Positions 2,819 to 29,211 of a DNA stretch of 64,000 bases are shown here, piece after piece. Origin of the DNA: Candidatus Melainabacteria bacterium (GTDB taxonomy: Bacteria; Cyanobacteriota; Vampirovibrionia; Obscuribacterales; Obscuribacteraceae); the NCBI GenBank assembly GCA_003242885.1, contig QKMZ01000015.1, positions 124,001 through 188,000 on the forward strand, written 5' to 3'. Position 1 is the stretch's first letter; each line of letters starts with the position of its first letter. The notes beneath the pieces were generated by a model. The model was not told where the DNA came from. It saw only the letters and a program-made list of their open reading frames with translations, and searched no databases. The translations under genes and the position numbers were made by a program.

Positions 2819-5095
2819 TTGCGACGAAAGAGAAGAGCTGAAGTTGCATCAACAACTGAAAAGTTGTGCGCTTGCTTCGCCTTTGAACAAGAACTTCGTC
2901 AGGTTGCAGCGAGTCTTTGCAGCACGTTGTTGCTTGCTAACAGCTTTGTACCGGCATGTTTTGCTCAGTCGAATAATGTCTCCAAACAATCCTCGGTATT
3001 GGCACCAAATACAGTGGCGCCGATATCGCCACCACCTGTAGCGCCGCCAATTTCTACTCGGATTCCCGCAAAAATTTCTGTTCCACCGGTGAATACTTCG
3101 ACTTTGAACGGCGCAGCAGCACCAGGCAGTCTTTTGGACAAAGGGCCTTTTAATCCTTCGAACCTCCCAGTCATAACTCCGTGGAAACCTCAGATAGAAG
3201 CTCCCGCGAAACCTTCGATAGACGCGACATCAAAATCTCCTGGGACCGCTCCATCTAAATCACTGGTGGACACTGGGTCAAAACCCCCTGTGGGATCTGT
3301 TTCAAAACCTCCGGTTTCCGCCCATCCTGCAGCAGGTGCGTCGAGCTTCACCCCTTTTAATTCCAGTCCTTCGGCAACAAAATCAACTGGCGGTTCTGCG
3401 AGTGCTCCTGTCAAATCCGCACCTCTGCCTGCACATGCGCCTGGCGCCGCATCTCCAGCCTCGGGAGCGTCCTCCGCGACTCCTTTATTAAAGCCGCAAG
3501 TGCCGAAAATCGCAGAGCCTGCACCGGCACCGGATATCAATAAAGCTCCCGCCGGAAGTCCAGGTTCGGCTCCGGGAGCGGGAGCGACTACGAACGCTAA
3601 TACTGAGGAAAAATACCCAGCGATTGCCCACCTCGAAATTCTGACCTTTGGAGAAACGCATCCAGCGATGGCCATTAGCGATCGTCTTGCTAATCTGGAA
3701 AGTACTGTTTTCAAAGAAACACATCCGACCGATTCTTTGTTTTCGCGCACAGAGCGTTTACAGAAGGTTCTTGTTGGAAGCGAAGGACCTACACCATACG
3801 AAAGTCCGCAATATCGTCCTCCCGATCTGCCTTCCTATGCGCGTGTTCCGCCCGCGACTCCCGCTCAAGATCAACCCAATACAGGTTGGACCGAACCCCC
3901 GCGCAGTCCTGTGCCGACTGGTAATCCAGGCGAAAGTCAATATTCTTATTTTGATGAAATCGCGGTTCTTCCTGAGAATCGTGTGGTCGTAAACAGTCAG
4001 CAACTGCAGGATTACTTCCTGGAGATGGTTAATAACGAGCGCCGAAAGGTCGGATCGCCACCGCTGGAAATCGATCAAATTGCTGAAAAGCTTGCCACCG
4101 AGCACGTAACGCAATTGGCTGAGCGAGCGCAAATTTCGCATTCCAATACAAGAGGTGAGAATCCGGATCGGCGCTATACACTGCTGGGTGGAACTGACGC
4201 GGTAACCGAAAGTTTGGTATCGCTTAAAAACAGCGAACTTGGTAGCCGCCGTCTTTATCGCGGTGCCGCTGCAAAACTGCTGCGCGTGCTCATGTCCCAC
4301 CAGGACGATCGCGACGCGCTAACCTCGCGCGATACCACTCATGTTGGTTTTGCCGCGGAGTGGACTGCCGATCACTCTCGCTTGATCGCATGCGCTGAGC
4401 TGGTTTCCAAACACGCAATTATCCACCCTGTTCCAGACAAGGCACACATTGATGAAAAAATCGACGTGAAAGGCGTGATGACTCCGCCGTATCAATTCGT
4501 TCGCGTGACACTGGCGTGGGAAGGCGGCAACAGCAATCTCGCCAGTGTTGCTGATGAATCGGACGAAGCCCTTCCTTATTTCCCGCCTCTCGATTACATT
4601 GCGTATCAAAAGCGCGCTGAAAGCGGCGGGCACGACAAAGCCATCATGATTTTGAAAGGCGTAGGTATTGCGGCGGCAATCGCGGGTGGCGTTTTCATGC
4701 CGCCAGTCGCGCTTGCCGCGCCTCTGATTGCGGTTTCGGGCAGTGGAAGTGGTGAACACAAGCCGGCATCGGAAATTCCGGTTAAAGGCGGAGTCAAACT
4801 GGAAGGATCCGTCTTCGAGACGAAAGTGCCGCTCAGCAATGAAGGCAAGGACGGGCTATACTACCTTACGGTGTGGGGCTCAGAAGGTCCGGGTGGCAAA
4901 CCTGTCCCTATTTCCAGAAGAGTCATTTATGTTTCCGGTGGAAAGGAAGACGCCACCAAAACAACCAATTCAGATACCGGCGAAATAACCAGCGATCAAA
5001 CGTCTAAGAGTGAGCAAACCTCTAAGAAAGACGAGAAAAGTACAAAAAATGCAAAGAAAGCTAAGAAAAACAAGAACGCAACGCCATCCAGCTGA
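2819..5095 (+). CDS. secreted CAP-domain (SCP/PR-1-like) protein with Pro/Ser-rich linker
   Basis: The 758-residue protein starts at TTG. It has a basic N terminus and a hydrophobic stretch ending PACFAQS near residue 50, consistent with export. Residues about 55-260 form a Pro/Ala/Ser/Lys linker with repeated KPP, KSP and SKP. Next comes a module (HLEILTFGETHP, DRLANLES, about 268-320) that also occurs in the metalloprotease gene at 26854. The CAP domain follows at about 395-530, with YFLEMVNNERRKVG, LATEHVTQLAER and ISHSNTRGEN. A hydrophobic Ala/Val/Gly segment lies near 610-640 and the C terminus is Lys/Ser-rich. CAP proteins act outside the cell in varied roles, so no activity is assigned. 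The VWA gene starts within its last codons. Confidence 0.85.
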   Translation: MRRKRRAEVASTTEKLCACFAFEQELRQVAASLCSTLLLANSFVPACFAQSNNVSKQSSVLAPNTVAPISPPPVAPPISTRIPAKISVPPVNTSTLNGAAAPGSLLDKGPFNPSNLPVITPWKPQIEAPAKPSIDATSKSPGTAPSKSLVDTGSKPPVGSVSKPPVSAHPAAGASSFTPFNSSPSATKSTGGSASAPVKSAPLPAHAPGAASPASGASSATPLLKPQVPKIAEPAPAPDINKAPAGSPGSAPGAGATTNANTEEKYPAIAHLEILTFGETHPAMAISDRLANLESTVFKETHPTDSLFSRTERLQKVLVGSEGPTPYESPQYRPPDLPSYARVPPATPAQDQPNTGWTEPPRSPVPTGNPGESQYSYFDEIAVLPENRVVVNSQQLQDYFLEMVNNERRKVGSPPLEIDQIAEKLATEHVTQLAERAQISHSNTRGENPDRRYTLLGGTDAVTESLVSLKNSELGSRRLYRGAAAKLLRVLMSHQDDRDALTSRDTTHVGFAAEWTADHSRLIACAELVSKHAIIHPVPDKAHIDEKIDVKGVMTPPYQFVRVTLAWEGGNSNLASVADESDEALPYFPPLDYIAYQKRAESGGHDKAIMILKGVGIAAAIAGGVFMPPVALAAPLIAVSGSGSGEHKPASEIPVKGGVKLEGSVFETKVPLSNEGKDGLYYLTVWGSEGPGGKPVPISRRVIYVSGGKEDATKTTNSDTGEITSDQTSKSEQTSKKDEKSTKNAKKAKKNKNATPSS

Positions 5096-6242
5096 GCTGC
5101 TTGTTTTTGCTCTTGCCATTGGCACCGCCAGTGGTGTAGCTATTTCTCTGGTAAACGGAACAGTTGCATACGCTGGCGACAACAAAGCGCCGCTTCCGCC
5201 TGTTTCACCAATGCCTGAGCCCGCCGGATGGCCGATGCCAGCGCCGACTTACCAGCCACCGCCGCGCCGCAATCCATTACCGGGTGCGTATCAAGGCGCT
5301 CCTGCGTTGCAGTCCGGAACTCAGAATACAACGCTGCAAACCGGAACGCAGAACACAATGCTACAAACCGGAACGCAGAACACGATGTTGCAGACCGGAA
5401 CGCAAAACACCATGTTGCAAACCGGAACGGTCGGTACGATGATCCAGAGCGGAGCCAACTCTAGCCTCATTCGAGGCGGTGTTGATAGAGATGCCGGACC
5501 AGTCAACATTTTGATTTTGCTCGATGCTTCCTACAGCATGAAAGAGAACCTTGAGCATGGAATGCAAAAGATGGATGCTGCAAAAATGGTCTTGCAGCAG
5601 GCGCTTTCGCGTGTGCCTTCTGATGTGAATTTAGGCCTGCGAGTTTTTGGTCAAGGATACACTGGCGATCCTTTCATGGACTGCAAACAGAGCGCACTGC
5701 TCGTGCCGCTGGGGCAGGGCAATCGGCGCTCGATTATTGAGCGAGTGAGGCAAGTTCATCCGTATGGGCTGACGCCTTTGGAGTTTGCGCTGCGACAAGC
5801 GGCTGAAAACGATTTGCAAGGCCTGAACGGCCCAAAAACTCTGATTTTGATTTCGGATGGCGCCGATACTTGTGGCGGCAATCCATGCGAGTTCATCAAG
5901 CAACTGCCGCGCATGGGCATCAAACTAAAAGTCGATATAGTTGGACTGAGTTTGAAGAATCGACCAGACGATATCATGGCGCGCCATCAGTTGAATTGCA
6001 TAACTGAACAGTCAGGCGGCAAGTATTACGACGCCAACACTGCGGCTCAGTTGATTGAGAGCATTTCGGCTAGCGTCAACAAAGCAATTTCCGGGCGCGT
6101 CATAATCAAGCCTGGCACCCCAGCTAAGAATGTCGATACACCCGTTGAGTTGCAGGAATTGAAACTACAAGAGCAGCCGCTCAAGGCTCCTGAAGCGCAG
6201 CCATTGAAAGCTCCCGATGCGCAGCCATTGCCTCAGAAGTAA
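5049..6242 (+). CDS. exported VWA-domain protein with nonapeptide repeats
   Basis: The ORF opens at GTG 5010, but ATG 5049 gives a conventional signal peptide: basic MQRKLRKTRTQ, hydrophobic LLVFALAIGTASG, cleavage near AYAGD. I prefer 5049, which gives 397 residues. After a Pro-rich stretch come six nine-residue repeats (LQTGTQNTM and variants). A von Willebrand A domain follows, with the MIDAS motif DASYSM, the downstream Thr in GLTPLEF and the Asp in LISDGADTC. The C terminus repeats PLKAPEAQ/PLKAPDAQ. VWA domains bind partners through a divalent metal. The gene overlaps the CAP gene by 47 bases in another frame, so the two are probably co-expressed surface proteins. The cysteines in DTCGGNPC may form a disulfide. 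Confidence 0.85.
   Translation: MQRKLRKTRTQRHPAELLVFALAIGTASGVAISLVNGTVAYAGDNKAPLPPVSPMPEPAGWPMPAPTYQPPPRRNPLPGAYQGAPALQSGTQNTTLQTGTQNTMLQTGTQNTMLQTGTQNTMLQTGTVGTMIQSGANSSLIRGGVDRDAGPVNILILLDASYSMKENLEHGMQKMDAAKMVLQQALSRVPSDVNLGLRVFGQGYTGDPFMDCKQSALLVPLGQGNRRSIIERVRQVHPYGLTPLEFALRQAAENDLQGLNGPKTLILISDGADTCGGNPCEFIKQLPRMGIKLKVDIVGLSLKNRPDDIMARHQLNCITEQSGGKYYDANTAAQLIESISASVNKAISGRVIIKPGTPAKNVDTPVELQELKLQEQPLKAPEAQPLKAPDAQPLPQK
5307..5468 (+). repeat. 27-base coding tandem repeat, six units
   Basis: Six in-frame units encode LQSGTQNTT, three copies of LQTGTQNTM, LQTGTVGTM and IQSGANSSL. The middle units are nearly identical in DNA, and the outer ones have diverged. Slippage or unequal recombination could change the copy number. 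It lies inside the VWA protein, between the signal peptide and the VWA domain. Confidence 0.9.
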
Positions 6243-25577: not shown

Positions 25578-26837
25578 ATGTCCACAAAAGTCTCCACGAT
25601 GTCTGAACAATCTCAAGGACCCAGCGGATTTATCGAGCTGGGCGGCGAGATGTTCCTCGTCGACTATGGACGGATTTGTGCTGCCGACGGCAGCCAGTGC
25701 GGTTATCTGTACGAAGACGGGTATTTGAAAGGAAACTTTGGACCGCTCACCGAAAAGCACGGGCTGGTGGCAATTGACGACATCGAAGGCTGCGTCTTTC
25801 GCGGCATCGATTCATCTGGCATGGAGCTGGATCTGCCTGGAGTACGGGTCGGTCCGGACGGCACGCTCAAATACAACGGTGTGGTCCTAACTGTAATTAA
25901 CGGGCGCATCGCTACTCAAGATCACCGTCTCGTTGGCGAGTTCGACGATGAAGGTGAGATTTATGTTCGCGACCGTGAGATAAAAGAACCCCGCCGAAGG
26001 CTCGATGAAAACACTCAGCTCAATTCGTATTTCGAAGGAAACAGGTCAGATGGATCTGCCTGGACTCACGAATTCGGACGCCCGCTCTACCGGAAGAATC
26101 TTTCTTACTCTGACAATGAAATCATTCGCTACTTTGATGATTTCGATAAATTGAATCAGCCCCAAAAGCAATATGTCATGGAAAGTATGCGTCTATGGGC
26201 TTCTTGTGGGCTTCTGCAAATCGTCAGAAAGAGCGAAGGCGTTGCGCAATTCGGCAATGTTCGTCATGGTGCCGCCGGCGTCACAGGCGTTAGGCATGGC
26301 AACGTCACGCTCGACAAAGAAGAGTTCGAAAAAGAAATTATGCTCTACAAGCGGTTTGGTCCGCTTGCCGTGATCGCCATTCGCTTGCAGCCTTATGTCG
26401 AAGTGCGCGTCAATCTGGTTGTTTCGCACGAGTTTGGTCACCAACTTGAATTCGTTCTTTCACAAGCTTCGCAAACACTCATCACAGAGTTGTATGAAAA
26501 GCACAAAGCAAAGAGCGGTCGTTATTATCCGCTGCCAAATGGCTATGAGGGTTATGCTGAAGTTCTAACGCCTCAGCAAGTTCATCAACGCGTGTTTATT
26601 TCCGGCTACGCGCGCACCAGCATGCACGAGTATTGGGCTGAATGTGTTGCCGCATTCTCAGTCAGAGAGAGCCGCAAGATGCTGAAGGAACTTGATCCTG
26701 GCGCTTATGCGATTCTTCGTGATGTCGTCACCAATCCATCTAAAATGATAAGACCTGTTTTCAGAGAACAGATTATGGACCTTCAAACCAGCCTGAGAAT
26801 CGGCGGAGAGTACACTGAAAGCTTGATTGCCGATTGA
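25578..26837 (+). CDS. putative cytoplasmic zinc metalloprotease (HEFGH) with novel N-terminal region
   Basis: The 419-residue protein has no signal peptide. Residues about 15-130 form short beta hairpin-like repeats (GGEMFLVDYGRICAADGSQCGYL, GVRVGPDGTLKYNGVVL, NGRIATQDHRLVGEFDDEGEIY). The C-terminal half carries HEFGH at 284-288 inside LVVSHEFGHQLEFVL, and a likely third ligand Glu355 in SMHEYWAECVAAF. This HExxH plus downstream E..A..F pattern is that of gluzincin-type zinc peptidases, with some resemblance to the anthrax lethal-factor-like (ATLF) domain. No named family is claimed. It is followed after 16 bases by another, secreted HExxH protein. Confidence 0.75.
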   Translation: MSTKVSTMSEQSQGPSGFIELGGEMFLVDYGRICAADGSQCGYLYEDGYLKGNFGPLTEKHGLVAIDDIEGCVFRGIDSSGMELDLPGVRVGPDGTLKYNGVVLTVINGRIATQDHRLVGEFDDEGEIYVRDREIKEPRRRLDENTQLNSYFEGNRSDGSAWTHEFGRPLYRKNLSYSDNEIIRYFDDFDKLNQPQKQYVMESMRLWASCGLLQIVRKSEGVAQFGNVRHGAAGVTGVRHGNVTLDKEEFEKEIMLYKRFGPLAVIAIRLQPYVEVRVNLVVSHEFGHQLEFVLSQASQTLITELYEKHKAKSGRYYPLPNGYEGYAEVLTPQQVHQRVFISGYARTSMHEYWAECVAAFSVRESRKMLKELDPGAYAILRDVVTNPSKMIRPVFREQIMDLQTSLRIGGEYTESLIAD

Positions 26838-26853
26838 TCACAAAGACAATTCC

Positions 26854-29211
26854 ATGGAAAAATTCGGAAAATTCAGCAAAGACCGCAGTGTAGCTTTGTT
26901 CTGCGCGCTGAGTATTTTTGTGGGTTGGTGCGCACCAAATGCTGTTGCTGCGCCAAAGCAATTGGAGCCTGTCCTCAAGGCCATCGATCCCTCTCAAGCG
27001 AAGATGGACACGCCAACTCCTGCGCCGCAGACCCAAAATCCTAATCCTCTCGGGCGCATCAACGGGCAACCTGTCAGCCGAGGCAATCAGCTCAATCGAG
27101 GCGATGTAAATCCGCAAGGTTCTGAACAACAGGACGGCTCTGGCTATAAGTACACCCCTTATGAATCGCCTGATTATTCCAACTCACCGCCTCAGTTTCC
27201 ATCTGATTCGCAAATTCCGGAATTCGGAAAGCCGCTTCCCGACTCGACGCGTGGTGGTGCTGGTAGTGCCACTGGCGACGCCTGGACGACAAATCGGACC
27301 GTACCTGCCGGTGCTGCGTCCCCTTCATCCAACTCTCAGGAAGAAACGCGCATTACTAAGTTGGAGCAGCAAGCATTTGGATCTACTTACCCTGAGCACG
27401 AAGTAGAAGACCGGCTGGATCACCTGGAAAAGGAAATCTTCGGTGCTCCAACACAGGCTCCACCGCCTGATAGATTGGCGCGACTAGAGCAGAAGCTCAA
27501 CATGAAGAGCGCTTTTGGTCAAACACCATCAGCTACTTCTCTAGGGCAGGGAGCGATTCCCATGAAGACGGCAAGTAATATGTATCCCCCGAAGAGCTCA
27601 TCGCCAGCCGGTGCAGCACCGGGGCAAGCATTCCCGCAACTTACCGCCGAGACTCCAAAGTTGGCCCCTGTTCCACCTGCACCGCAGAATTTTGGTGTGC
27701 AGAATCAGCAAGGCGGCGGGCAAAATTTTGCCGGACCTTCAGGAAATCAGCAATTAGCATACTTACCTTCGCCGCAATCTGGTCCTCCGCAAGCTGGCTT
27801 TGGAGCGCCTTCAGGCGGCTTCCAGCAGCAGGGTCCTGCTGGTTCGTTCAATCAGGCGCCACCACAACAGCCGTGGCGTGCAGGTGGAACTCCCGCATCT
27901 GGACAGCCTCCGCAACCTCAGGCTTCTCCTAATTGGCAAATGCCTCAGCAGTCCTATCAGCAACCGCCGCAGCAGTTTCAGCAACCGCCGCAGCAGTTTC
28001 AGCAACCGCCGCAGCAATTTCAACAACCACCGCAGCAGTTTCAACCACCGCAACAGTTTCAGCAACCACCGCAGCAGTTTCAACCACCGCAACAGTTTCA
28101 GCAACCACCGCAATACCAACAGCCCTATCCTCAGCCACAGTTTCCGGCGCCTCAATTTCAACAGCAGCAATATCCGCCTCAGCAGCAATATCAACAGTCA
28201 TATCAGCAGCCGCCGCAGCAGTTTCAGCCACCATCGCAGCAGTTTCAGCCGCAGCCGCAGTACCAGCAGCAGTATCAACAACCATATCCACAGCAGCAAT
28301 ATCAACAACCGCCGCAATTCCAACAACCGCAGCCGCAGTTTTCGCAGAATGGCTACCCTGCACCACAGTATGTTCAACCGCCTCAGTATCAGCAACCGCA
28401 GTATCAGCCGATGCAGCAAGGGCAGTATCCGCCACCCACCCAGCAGTATCCTTCTTACGGGCAGCCGATTTACACATCCACTCTTCCTCCTGGAAATGCA
28501 CCTGCTGCACCACATGCGGTGAAACCTGCGCCTTCCGCACCGAAGACCCCGCAATCAATGGCGCCTGTCGGTAACAATCCCAATATCGCTCAATCTGACT
28601 ATTTCGTTGTGGTCAAAGGCATGCCTTACGACGAAAAGGCTGGCGATTACCTCTCCGCCATTTGGAGACCGCCAGGTATTTCAAGTGCGAGATTTAGCCG
28701 TTTCCCTCTCAGGATTCGCTTGCCTCAGTCGTCGCCCGAATCGTGGCGCAAGTACTTGGATGAGACGATCAAGAAGTGGGGCAGCTACATTCCGCTAAAA
28801 GTGGCTTCGCAAAACGAGCCAGCTGATATCGAAATTACTTGGGAAAACCATTTCGCCGACAATAAGCTGCTCGGAATAACGCGGTTGCAGATATTGCAGG
28901 GGCACATGCAGGTACGTATCTATCTTTTGCGTCCCACTTTCTATCCGCCTGATGTGCCCGAGCGTATTTTGAAAAACGTTGCCATGCACGAAATTGGGCA
29001 TTCCGTTGGACTTTTCGGTCACAGCGACAATTCTCAGGACGTAATGTTTGCCAACGAACTGTTCTCCGGCAAAGGCAAGGCAGCGTCTGCGAAGCCGGGC
29101 AACATAACGCAGCGAGACCTCAATACTCTGAAGAAAATCTACGAGTGCCCGCCAATGGGCGCCAATGTCAGTACGGGAAAACCGATGGAGTGGACCTCGC
29201 GGCTGCCGTAG
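26854..29211 (+). CDS. secreted matrixin-like zinc metalloprotease with Pro/Gln-rich linker
   Basis: The ORF opens at TTG 26827, but ATG 26854 gives a clean signal peptide (MEKFGKFSKDRSVALFCAL, cleavage near AVAAPKQ) and 785 residues. After a low-complexity stretch comes the module KLEQQAFGSTYP, DRLDHLEKEIFG (about 168-220), also found in the CAP protein. A long Pro/Gln/Tyr linker follows, with QPPQQFQ repeated. The C-terminal domain (about 595-785) carries MHEIGHSVGLFGH with the metzincin pattern HExxHxxGxxxH (His712 onward) and DVMFANEL as the Met-turn. Metzincins cleave proteins outside the cell. The long linker would let the catalytic domain reach away from the surface. Confidence 0.88.
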   Translation: MEKFGKFSKDRSVALFCALSIFVGWCAPNAVAAPKQLEPVLKAIDPSQAKMDTPTPAPQTQNPNPLGRINGQPVSRGNQLNRGDVNPQGSEQQDGSGYKYTPYESPDYSNSPPQFPSDSQIPEFGKPLPDSTRGGAGSATGDAWTTNRTVPAGAASPSSNSQEETRITKLEQQAFGSTYPEHEVEDRLDHLEKEIFGAPTQAPPPDRLARLEQKLNMKSAFGQTPSATSLGQGAIPMKTASNMYPPKSSSPAGAAPGQAFPQLTAETPKLAPVPPAPQNFGVQNQQGGGQNFAGPSGNQQLAYLPSPQSGPPQAGFGAPSGGFQQQGPAGSFNQAPPQQPWRAGGTPASGQPPQPQASPNWQMPQQSYQQPPQQFQQPPQQFQQPPQQFQQPPQQFQPPQQFQQPPQQFQPPQQFQQPPQYQQPYPQPQFPAPQFQQQQYPPQQQYQQSYQQPPQQFQPPSQQFQPQPQYQQQYQQPYPQQQYQQPPQFQQPQPQFSQNGYPAPQYVQPPQYQQPQYQPMQQGQYPPPTQQYPSYGQPIYTSTLPPGNAPAAPHAVKPAPSAPKTPQSMAPVGNNPNIAQSDYFVVVKGMPYDEKAGDYLSAIWRPPGISSARFSRFPLRIRLPQSSPESWRKYLDETIKKWGSYIPLKVASQNEPADIEITWENHFADNKLLGITRLQILQGHMQVRIYLLRPTFYPPDVPERILKNVAMHEIGHSVGLFGHSDNSQDVMFANELFSGKGKAASAKPGNITQRDLNTLKKIYECPPMGANVSTGKPMEWTSRLP
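27961..28110 (+). repeat. 21-base coding repeats (QPPQQFQ)
   Basis: Six or seven units of QPPQQFQ, with a shorter PPQQFQ variant interleaved, are encoded by nearly identical DNA. The array lies in the linker of the metalloprotease. Long ORFs in other frames and on the minus strand over this stretch are products of the repeat. Confidence 0.85.

Follow-up and report, generated by a model that had tools for sequence, protein, structure and literature searches.

An unnamed module of predicted three-helix fold, found on putatively exported proteins and apparently specific to the class Vampirovibrionia

Do two putatively exported proteins encoded in the window (the whole 64,000-nucleotide stretch of DNA that was analysed) share a genuine domain, and if so, what might that domain do for the proteins that carry it? 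The first-pass annotation had noticed a similar block of about 50 residues in a CAP-domain protein and in a matrixin-like protein. Each block lies within an open frame on the plus strand and is referred to below as a module. The features concerned are the following.

2819..5095, + strand: putatively exported CAP-domain protein, 758 aa, one module; N-terminal hydrophobic stretch and Pro/Ser/Ala-rich linker; start codon uncertain
3602..3772, + strand: module copy 1 (YPAIAHLEILTFGETHPAMAISDRLANLESTVFKETHPTDSLFSRTERLQKVL) in the CAP protein; held-out profile 38.6 bits, E 3.2e-11
4019..4378, + strand: CAP domain PF00188, E 1.4e-7
26827..29211, + strand: putatively exported matrixin-type metalloprotease, 794 aa, one module; zinc motif HEIGHSVGLFGH
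27328..27501, + strand: module copy 2 (NSQEETRITKLEQQAFGSTYPEHEVEDRLDHLEKEIFGAPTQAPPPDRLARLEQKLN) in the matrixin; held-out profile 53.0 bits, E 1e-15
27334..27378, + strand: predicted helix 1 of copy 2, with the invariant Glu (AlphaFold2, fragment residues 4-18; E9 in 412/412)
27403..27441, + strand: predicted helix 2 of copy 2, R-L-x-x-L-E-x3-F (AlphaFold2, residues 27-39; R25 in 412/412, E30 in 400/412)
27463..27510, + strand: predicted helix 3 of copy 2, R-L-x-x-L (AlphaFold2, residues 47-62; R46 in 400/412)
28969..29142, + strand: matrixin catalytic region PF00413, E 1.1e-7

In a pairwise search against the genome, one of the two copies found the other at E = 0.07 only, so the two copies by themselves are insufficient proof of a shared domain. 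A held-out profile of 63 modules, none taken from either window protein or from an orthologue of one, ranked the matrixin first and the CAP protein second among 1254 six-frame translations of the window. These were its sole significant matches; the next-best translation scored 8.3 bits (E 0.09) and the best shuffled open reading frame 6.7 bits (n = 3080). The blocks are true copies because the held-out profile finds both whereas it does not find shuffled frames. The annotation had located them correctly, with profile limits a few residues wider than it gave. Its description of the block as lying between a linker and the catalytic or CAP domain fits the CAP protein better than the matrixin, in which about 490 Q/P-rich residues separate the module from the catalytic domain.

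Two neighbouring genes were also recorded. One, at 5010-6242 on the + strand, overlaps the 3' end of the CAP gene; its product contains a VWA domain and, close to the N-terminus, the short tandem repeat LQTGTQNTM. The other, a 419-aa open reading frame (25578-26837, + strand), lies immediately upstream of the matrixin, overlaps the start of that gene, and carries a zinc-peptidase-like HEFGHQLEFV motif, with no Pfam match at E 0.001; it is possibly a second metallopeptidase cotranscribed with the matrixin.

The module extends well beyond the window. The genome from which the window derives has 15 modules in 10 proteins, and a search of relatives matched 31 of 31 genomes, with up to 27 copies each. 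These organisms belong to the Vampirovibrionia (also Melainabacteria), nonphotosynthetic relatives of cyanobacteria that are mostly uncultured and often gut dwelling or predatory. Across the class, 236 of 240 genomes matched at E <= 1e-3; when the remaining four were searched with a better profile, one gave a clear match, one a marginal match, and two none. Of 386 genomes drawn from across the phylum, 183 matched, all of them listed in the Vampirovibrionia, and the module was found in none of the 203 cyanobacterial genomes of other classes in the same draw, the listed nonmatching genomes all being of other classes. Eighteen other-class genomes searched again with the better profile yielded four marginal partial matches (E 0.005-0.04), which are read as noise. 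With its presence in nearly every genome of the class and its absence from the roughly 200 sister genomes searched, photosynthetic or other, the family marks the class with unusual clarity.

A DNA pattern derived from the module was scanned over one genome per species for about 85,000 species. It matched at least 119 stretches, and the profile confirmed a module in 119 of the 119 matches listed. The titles of 91 of these name Melainabacteria, Obscuribacterales, Gastranaerophilales (including 'Galligastranaerophilus'), Vampirovibrio or, less specifically, cyanobacteria; most others are titled just 'bacterium', and several of those have the coordinates of genomes previously assigned to the class. 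These titles are the basis for identifying the class as Vampirovibrionia. Among the 119 matches listed, none was demonstrated to lie outside the Vampirovibrionia. A record titled 'Proteobacteria bacterium' (L203, Centralia_MAG_505) was rejected as an outsider; its match coordinates are the same as those of a genome (G014) of the window's own family, and the title appears to be a misnomer. The same kind of scan over 2.9 million viral contigs found no true module, the one pattern match being an unrelated frame. Absence of the module from other phyla is strongly suggested. The expectation that the block would be lineage specific was thus borne out, although the lineage is the whole class and not the Obscuribacterales alone. 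The profile search that the annotation had proposed returned many putatively exported proteins with varied partners and not just two proteins at chance scores. We are highly confident that the module is a real, unnamed, class-specific exported domain.

A module is about 55 residues long and is built on a repeat unit of about 21 residues, [R]-L-x-x-L-E-x3-F-G-x-T-Y-P-x5-D, in which a helix (R-L-x-x-L-E-x3-F-G) is followed by a T-Y-P loop. The unit occurs twice, and the module then closes with a third helix, R-x-x-R-L. The pattern of about 50 residues described earlier is real, and one correction to it is that the block is internally repetitive, with two complete units and a further helix. Structure prediction, which had also been named as a check, gave a compact three-helix domain: AlphaFold2 modelled the matrixin module, with 69 aligned modules, at pLDDT 87.8 and pTM 0.72. 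A whole three-module protein was modelled as three helices three times over, with low-confidence linkers between (pTM 0.27). The module is thus predicted to be one compact three-helix domain within a single chain. In Foldseek searches of the PDB the three-module model had no match and the single-module model no fold match (best E 0.62, TM <= 0.48). Searched singly, the module matched nothing in Pfam or NCBIfam above the acceptance cut-offs, and no description of it was found in the open-access literature. The statement that no known domain has this pattern therefore holds, for sequence families and for solved folds alike.

Conservation points to how the helices might be held together. Among 412 distinct modules, E9 and R25 are invariant, and E30 and R46 are each present in 400. 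The conserved Glu is found on helices 1 and 2 but not on helix 3, and the conserved Arg on helices 2 and 3 but not on helix 1. The motif R-h-x-x-h-E, whose bridges stabilise parallel trimers (PMC5940361), is thus present in the module helices (R25 with E30), and this distribution of Glu and Arg is the pattern expected if such bridges joined helix 1 to 2 to 3 in cis. The coupling of E9 with R25 and of E30 with R46 was strong and was set aside as uninformative, since these residues hardly vary. Among variable columns, the covarying pairs F13-K32, L8-L29, F34-A53, V33-L54, and L5-L47 bring together the same helix ends. The same-end excess was 0.28, just above all 40 column-shuffle nulls (maximum 0.23), and was positive in 96.7% of cluster bootstraps. 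This covariation no more than suggests that the three helices pack in parallel.

It could instead be that the helices pair between chains, as in the C-terminus of GpsB or the coiled coil of coronin, so that the module serves as a homo-oligomerisation segment that forms trimers and makes enzymes multivalent. The R-h-x-x-h-E helices are consistent with this, as are the best PDB sequence matches of the profile, which were the C-terminus of GpsB (E 0.0026) and the coiled coils of CNGA3, coronin-1A, and GCN4. The chain counts of those entries (9, 3, 3, and 6, respectively) are multiples of three and fit trimers. However, AlphaFold2 folds one chain (at the pTM given above), each module already has three helices with Glu and Arg distributed as for bridging in cis, and three copies per protein would be needless. 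Trimerisation between chains is therefore quite improbable as the function of the module.

The proteins that carry modules have features of export. Close to the N-terminus, 188 of 191 carriers had a 12-mer scored as strongly hydrophobic, against 204 of 448 other long open reading frames from those loci; the cut-off was 1.7, in a crude test of hydrophobicity that is not a signal-peptide predictor. Of the three exceptions, two are at the edges of fetched sequences and the other scores 1.69. Judged by sequence, essentially all complete carriers appear to have an export-type N-terminus. Within the class, CAP is also a partner in further families (from sequence in L054 and L055, and by Pfam in L055), and the matrixin partner recurs in a Vampirovibrio chlorellavorus metagenome-assembled genome (L144, below the Pfam cut-off) and others. 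Further partners are TPR with PDZ, TPR alone, and TPR with a TonB C-terminal domain.

Two further groups of carriers have distinctive ends. Small, putatively exported Tyr/Asn-rich proteins of gut members (L053, L078, L087, and relatives) have one module each and, at the C-terminal end, a conserved motif, 'DxRTxxGxxxxNTxRGxTTGVTIxD'; Pfam gave no match for L053. Four putatively exported two-module proteins (L005, L043, L046, and L048) have in common a conserved C-terminal tail, 'PPYxDPNSI'.

By far the commonest carrier, with 116 proteins in a sample whose proportions mirror the loci fetched and are not a census, is a three-module protein. Its linkers are long and variable (median gap between modules, 36 residues); a C-terminal hydrophobic segment is present in 71 of the 116 proteins and a Gly-rich C-terminus in 31. 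In five regions inspected, the three-module genes had no conserved gene neighbourhood or partner. In a tree of the 96 modules of 32 diverse three-module proteins, built from a short alignment that leaves most forks unresolved, modules grouped by position in the protein, with five changes of position label against a minimum of two and a shuffled mean of 45.5. Since modules group by position, the triplication is older than the radiation of the class, and the three-module protein, mostly tail-anchored, was already triplicated in the class ancestor. In one such protein (L061, residues 251-287) and its orthologues, module 3 is followed by a tail, AxAQxTAKxYxxNKxQKxxSTGxQIGxxILMILAxIL, that is predicted as a single helix continuing from module 3 and has 59% mean identity, a higher conservation than that of any module.

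These observations bear on the possibility that the module binds no specific ligand and acts only as a stable spacer, holding the linkers extended. Long, variable linkers and conservation that is mainly structural would be expected of a spacer. However, the order and number of spacers should be able to change freely, whereas modules 1, 2, and 3 have stayed distinct since the class ancestor, and retention is near universal in genomes of about 2 Mb. We regard a spacer function as the least probable of the readings considered.

A role consistent with the features of the carriers is docking or retention of exported proteins in the envelope. We propose that the 21-residue helix-loop units fold in one chain into a three-helix bundle, with helices that are probably parallel and bridges from E of one helix to R of the next as in the coiled-coil trimerisation motif R-h-x-x-h-E, and that the resulting module acts as a self-contained bead on the exported proteins that carry it. 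In its ancestral form the carrier would have an export signal, three beads, and usually a hydrophobic tail, and would display the beads in the envelope; CAP, matrixin, TPR, and PDZ proteins, each with a single bead, would most likely be docked or retained there by protein-protein contact. This role is inferred because carriers appear to be exported, partners are varied, and beads are on flexible linkers; because the tail-anchored three-bead carrier is kept in small genomes; and because the mean net charge of the module is near zero (-0.1) and its conservation reads as structural. However, the lack of a conserved gene neighbourhood in the few regions inspected counts against docking, and three beads on long flexible linkers would also fit avidity binding to glycan or wall, or a plain spacer. 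We give the proposal as a whole, a class-specific three-helix domain for envelope docking or retention by protein-protein contact, about an even chance of being correct.

Anchoring to the cell wall or to a surface glycan, in the manner of SLH or LysM triplets, would also account for several of these features. Three weak beads on flexible linkers would give avidity and single copies would tether enzymes, and the export-type N-termini and the wall-type partner domains, for example, CAP, are in keeping with this. However, a net charge of about zero argues mildly against a glycan-binding pocket, as does the conservation: the conserved columns all appear explicable as structural, and no conserved aromatic or charged patch seems to be left over. 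Nor did the carriers scanned have a Pfam match to SLH or LysM. Wall anchoring is unlikely, although it is the alternative to which we give the most weight. A more specific version of docking by protein-protein contact is a class-wide homotypic system in the Vampirovibrionia envelope, with the near-universal three-module, tail-anchored protein as receptor scaffold, on which clients with one module each (CAP, protease, TPR, and PDZ proteins) would assemble. The analogy is with scaffoldin and dockerin, here built from an intramolecular three-helix coil, and we consider it slightly less likely than wall anchoring.

The module looks like a signature part of the Vampirovibrionia cell envelope and offers a handle on how that envelope is organised. 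A Pfam-type model would annotate several currently nameless proteins per genome, and the module may serve as a genomic marker of the class.

Known families resemble the module in parts. By architecture only, SLH, LysM, and dockerin domains are alike in having about 50 to 60 residues, in being repeated or single, and in occurring on exported proteins alongside a variety of partners; dockerins, too, consist of a duplicated unit of about 22 residues. In contrast, the module has no sequence match to any of these and no Ca-binding loop. The C-terminal domain of lipoate ligase (Lip_prot_lig_C, PF10437) has a local likeness, an 'LE..L.G..Y' helix-turn-helix, and partial matches on one three-module protein sum to 24.8 bits (cut-off 24). 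Homology was rejected, as single modules score 16.7 bits or less and the carriers scanned have no catalytic domain. The coiled coils of coronin-1A (2akf), GCN4 (2o7h), and CNGA3 (3swy), weak matches of the profile, place Arg at g' and Glu at e around a hydrophobic a/d core. They are continuous coils between chains, whereas the module has helices of 12 to 16 residues and crossover loops of 7 to 8 residues in one chain.

The closest likeness is to GpsB, whose C-terminal domain homotrimerises (PMC11062636). The trimerising helix (PDB 5an5) can be compared directly (ILKRLSNLEKHVFG versus iedRLdrLEkkvFG); the module has a helix of the GpsB C-terminal type, R-L-x-x-L-E-x-x-V-F-G, and GpsB (NF010725) is the best NCBIfam match of a carrier (27.1 bits, E 4.2e-6), below its cut-off of 91 bits. 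Pfam scans of carriers gave no match to DivIVA, which the N-terminal coiled coil of GpsB resembles. Membership in the GpsB family was rejected because of the score under the cut-off and the export-type N-termini, the likeness being to one helix only, and it is best read as convergent. GpsB is cytoplasmic and contributes one helix per chain to trimers formed between chains, whereas the module has three helices per chain, lacks the N-terminal domain of GpsB, and appears to be exported. The module would be a single-chain counterpart of the trimer formed by the GpsB C-terminus, and it may serve as a natural example of a single-chain, parallel, three-helix coil.
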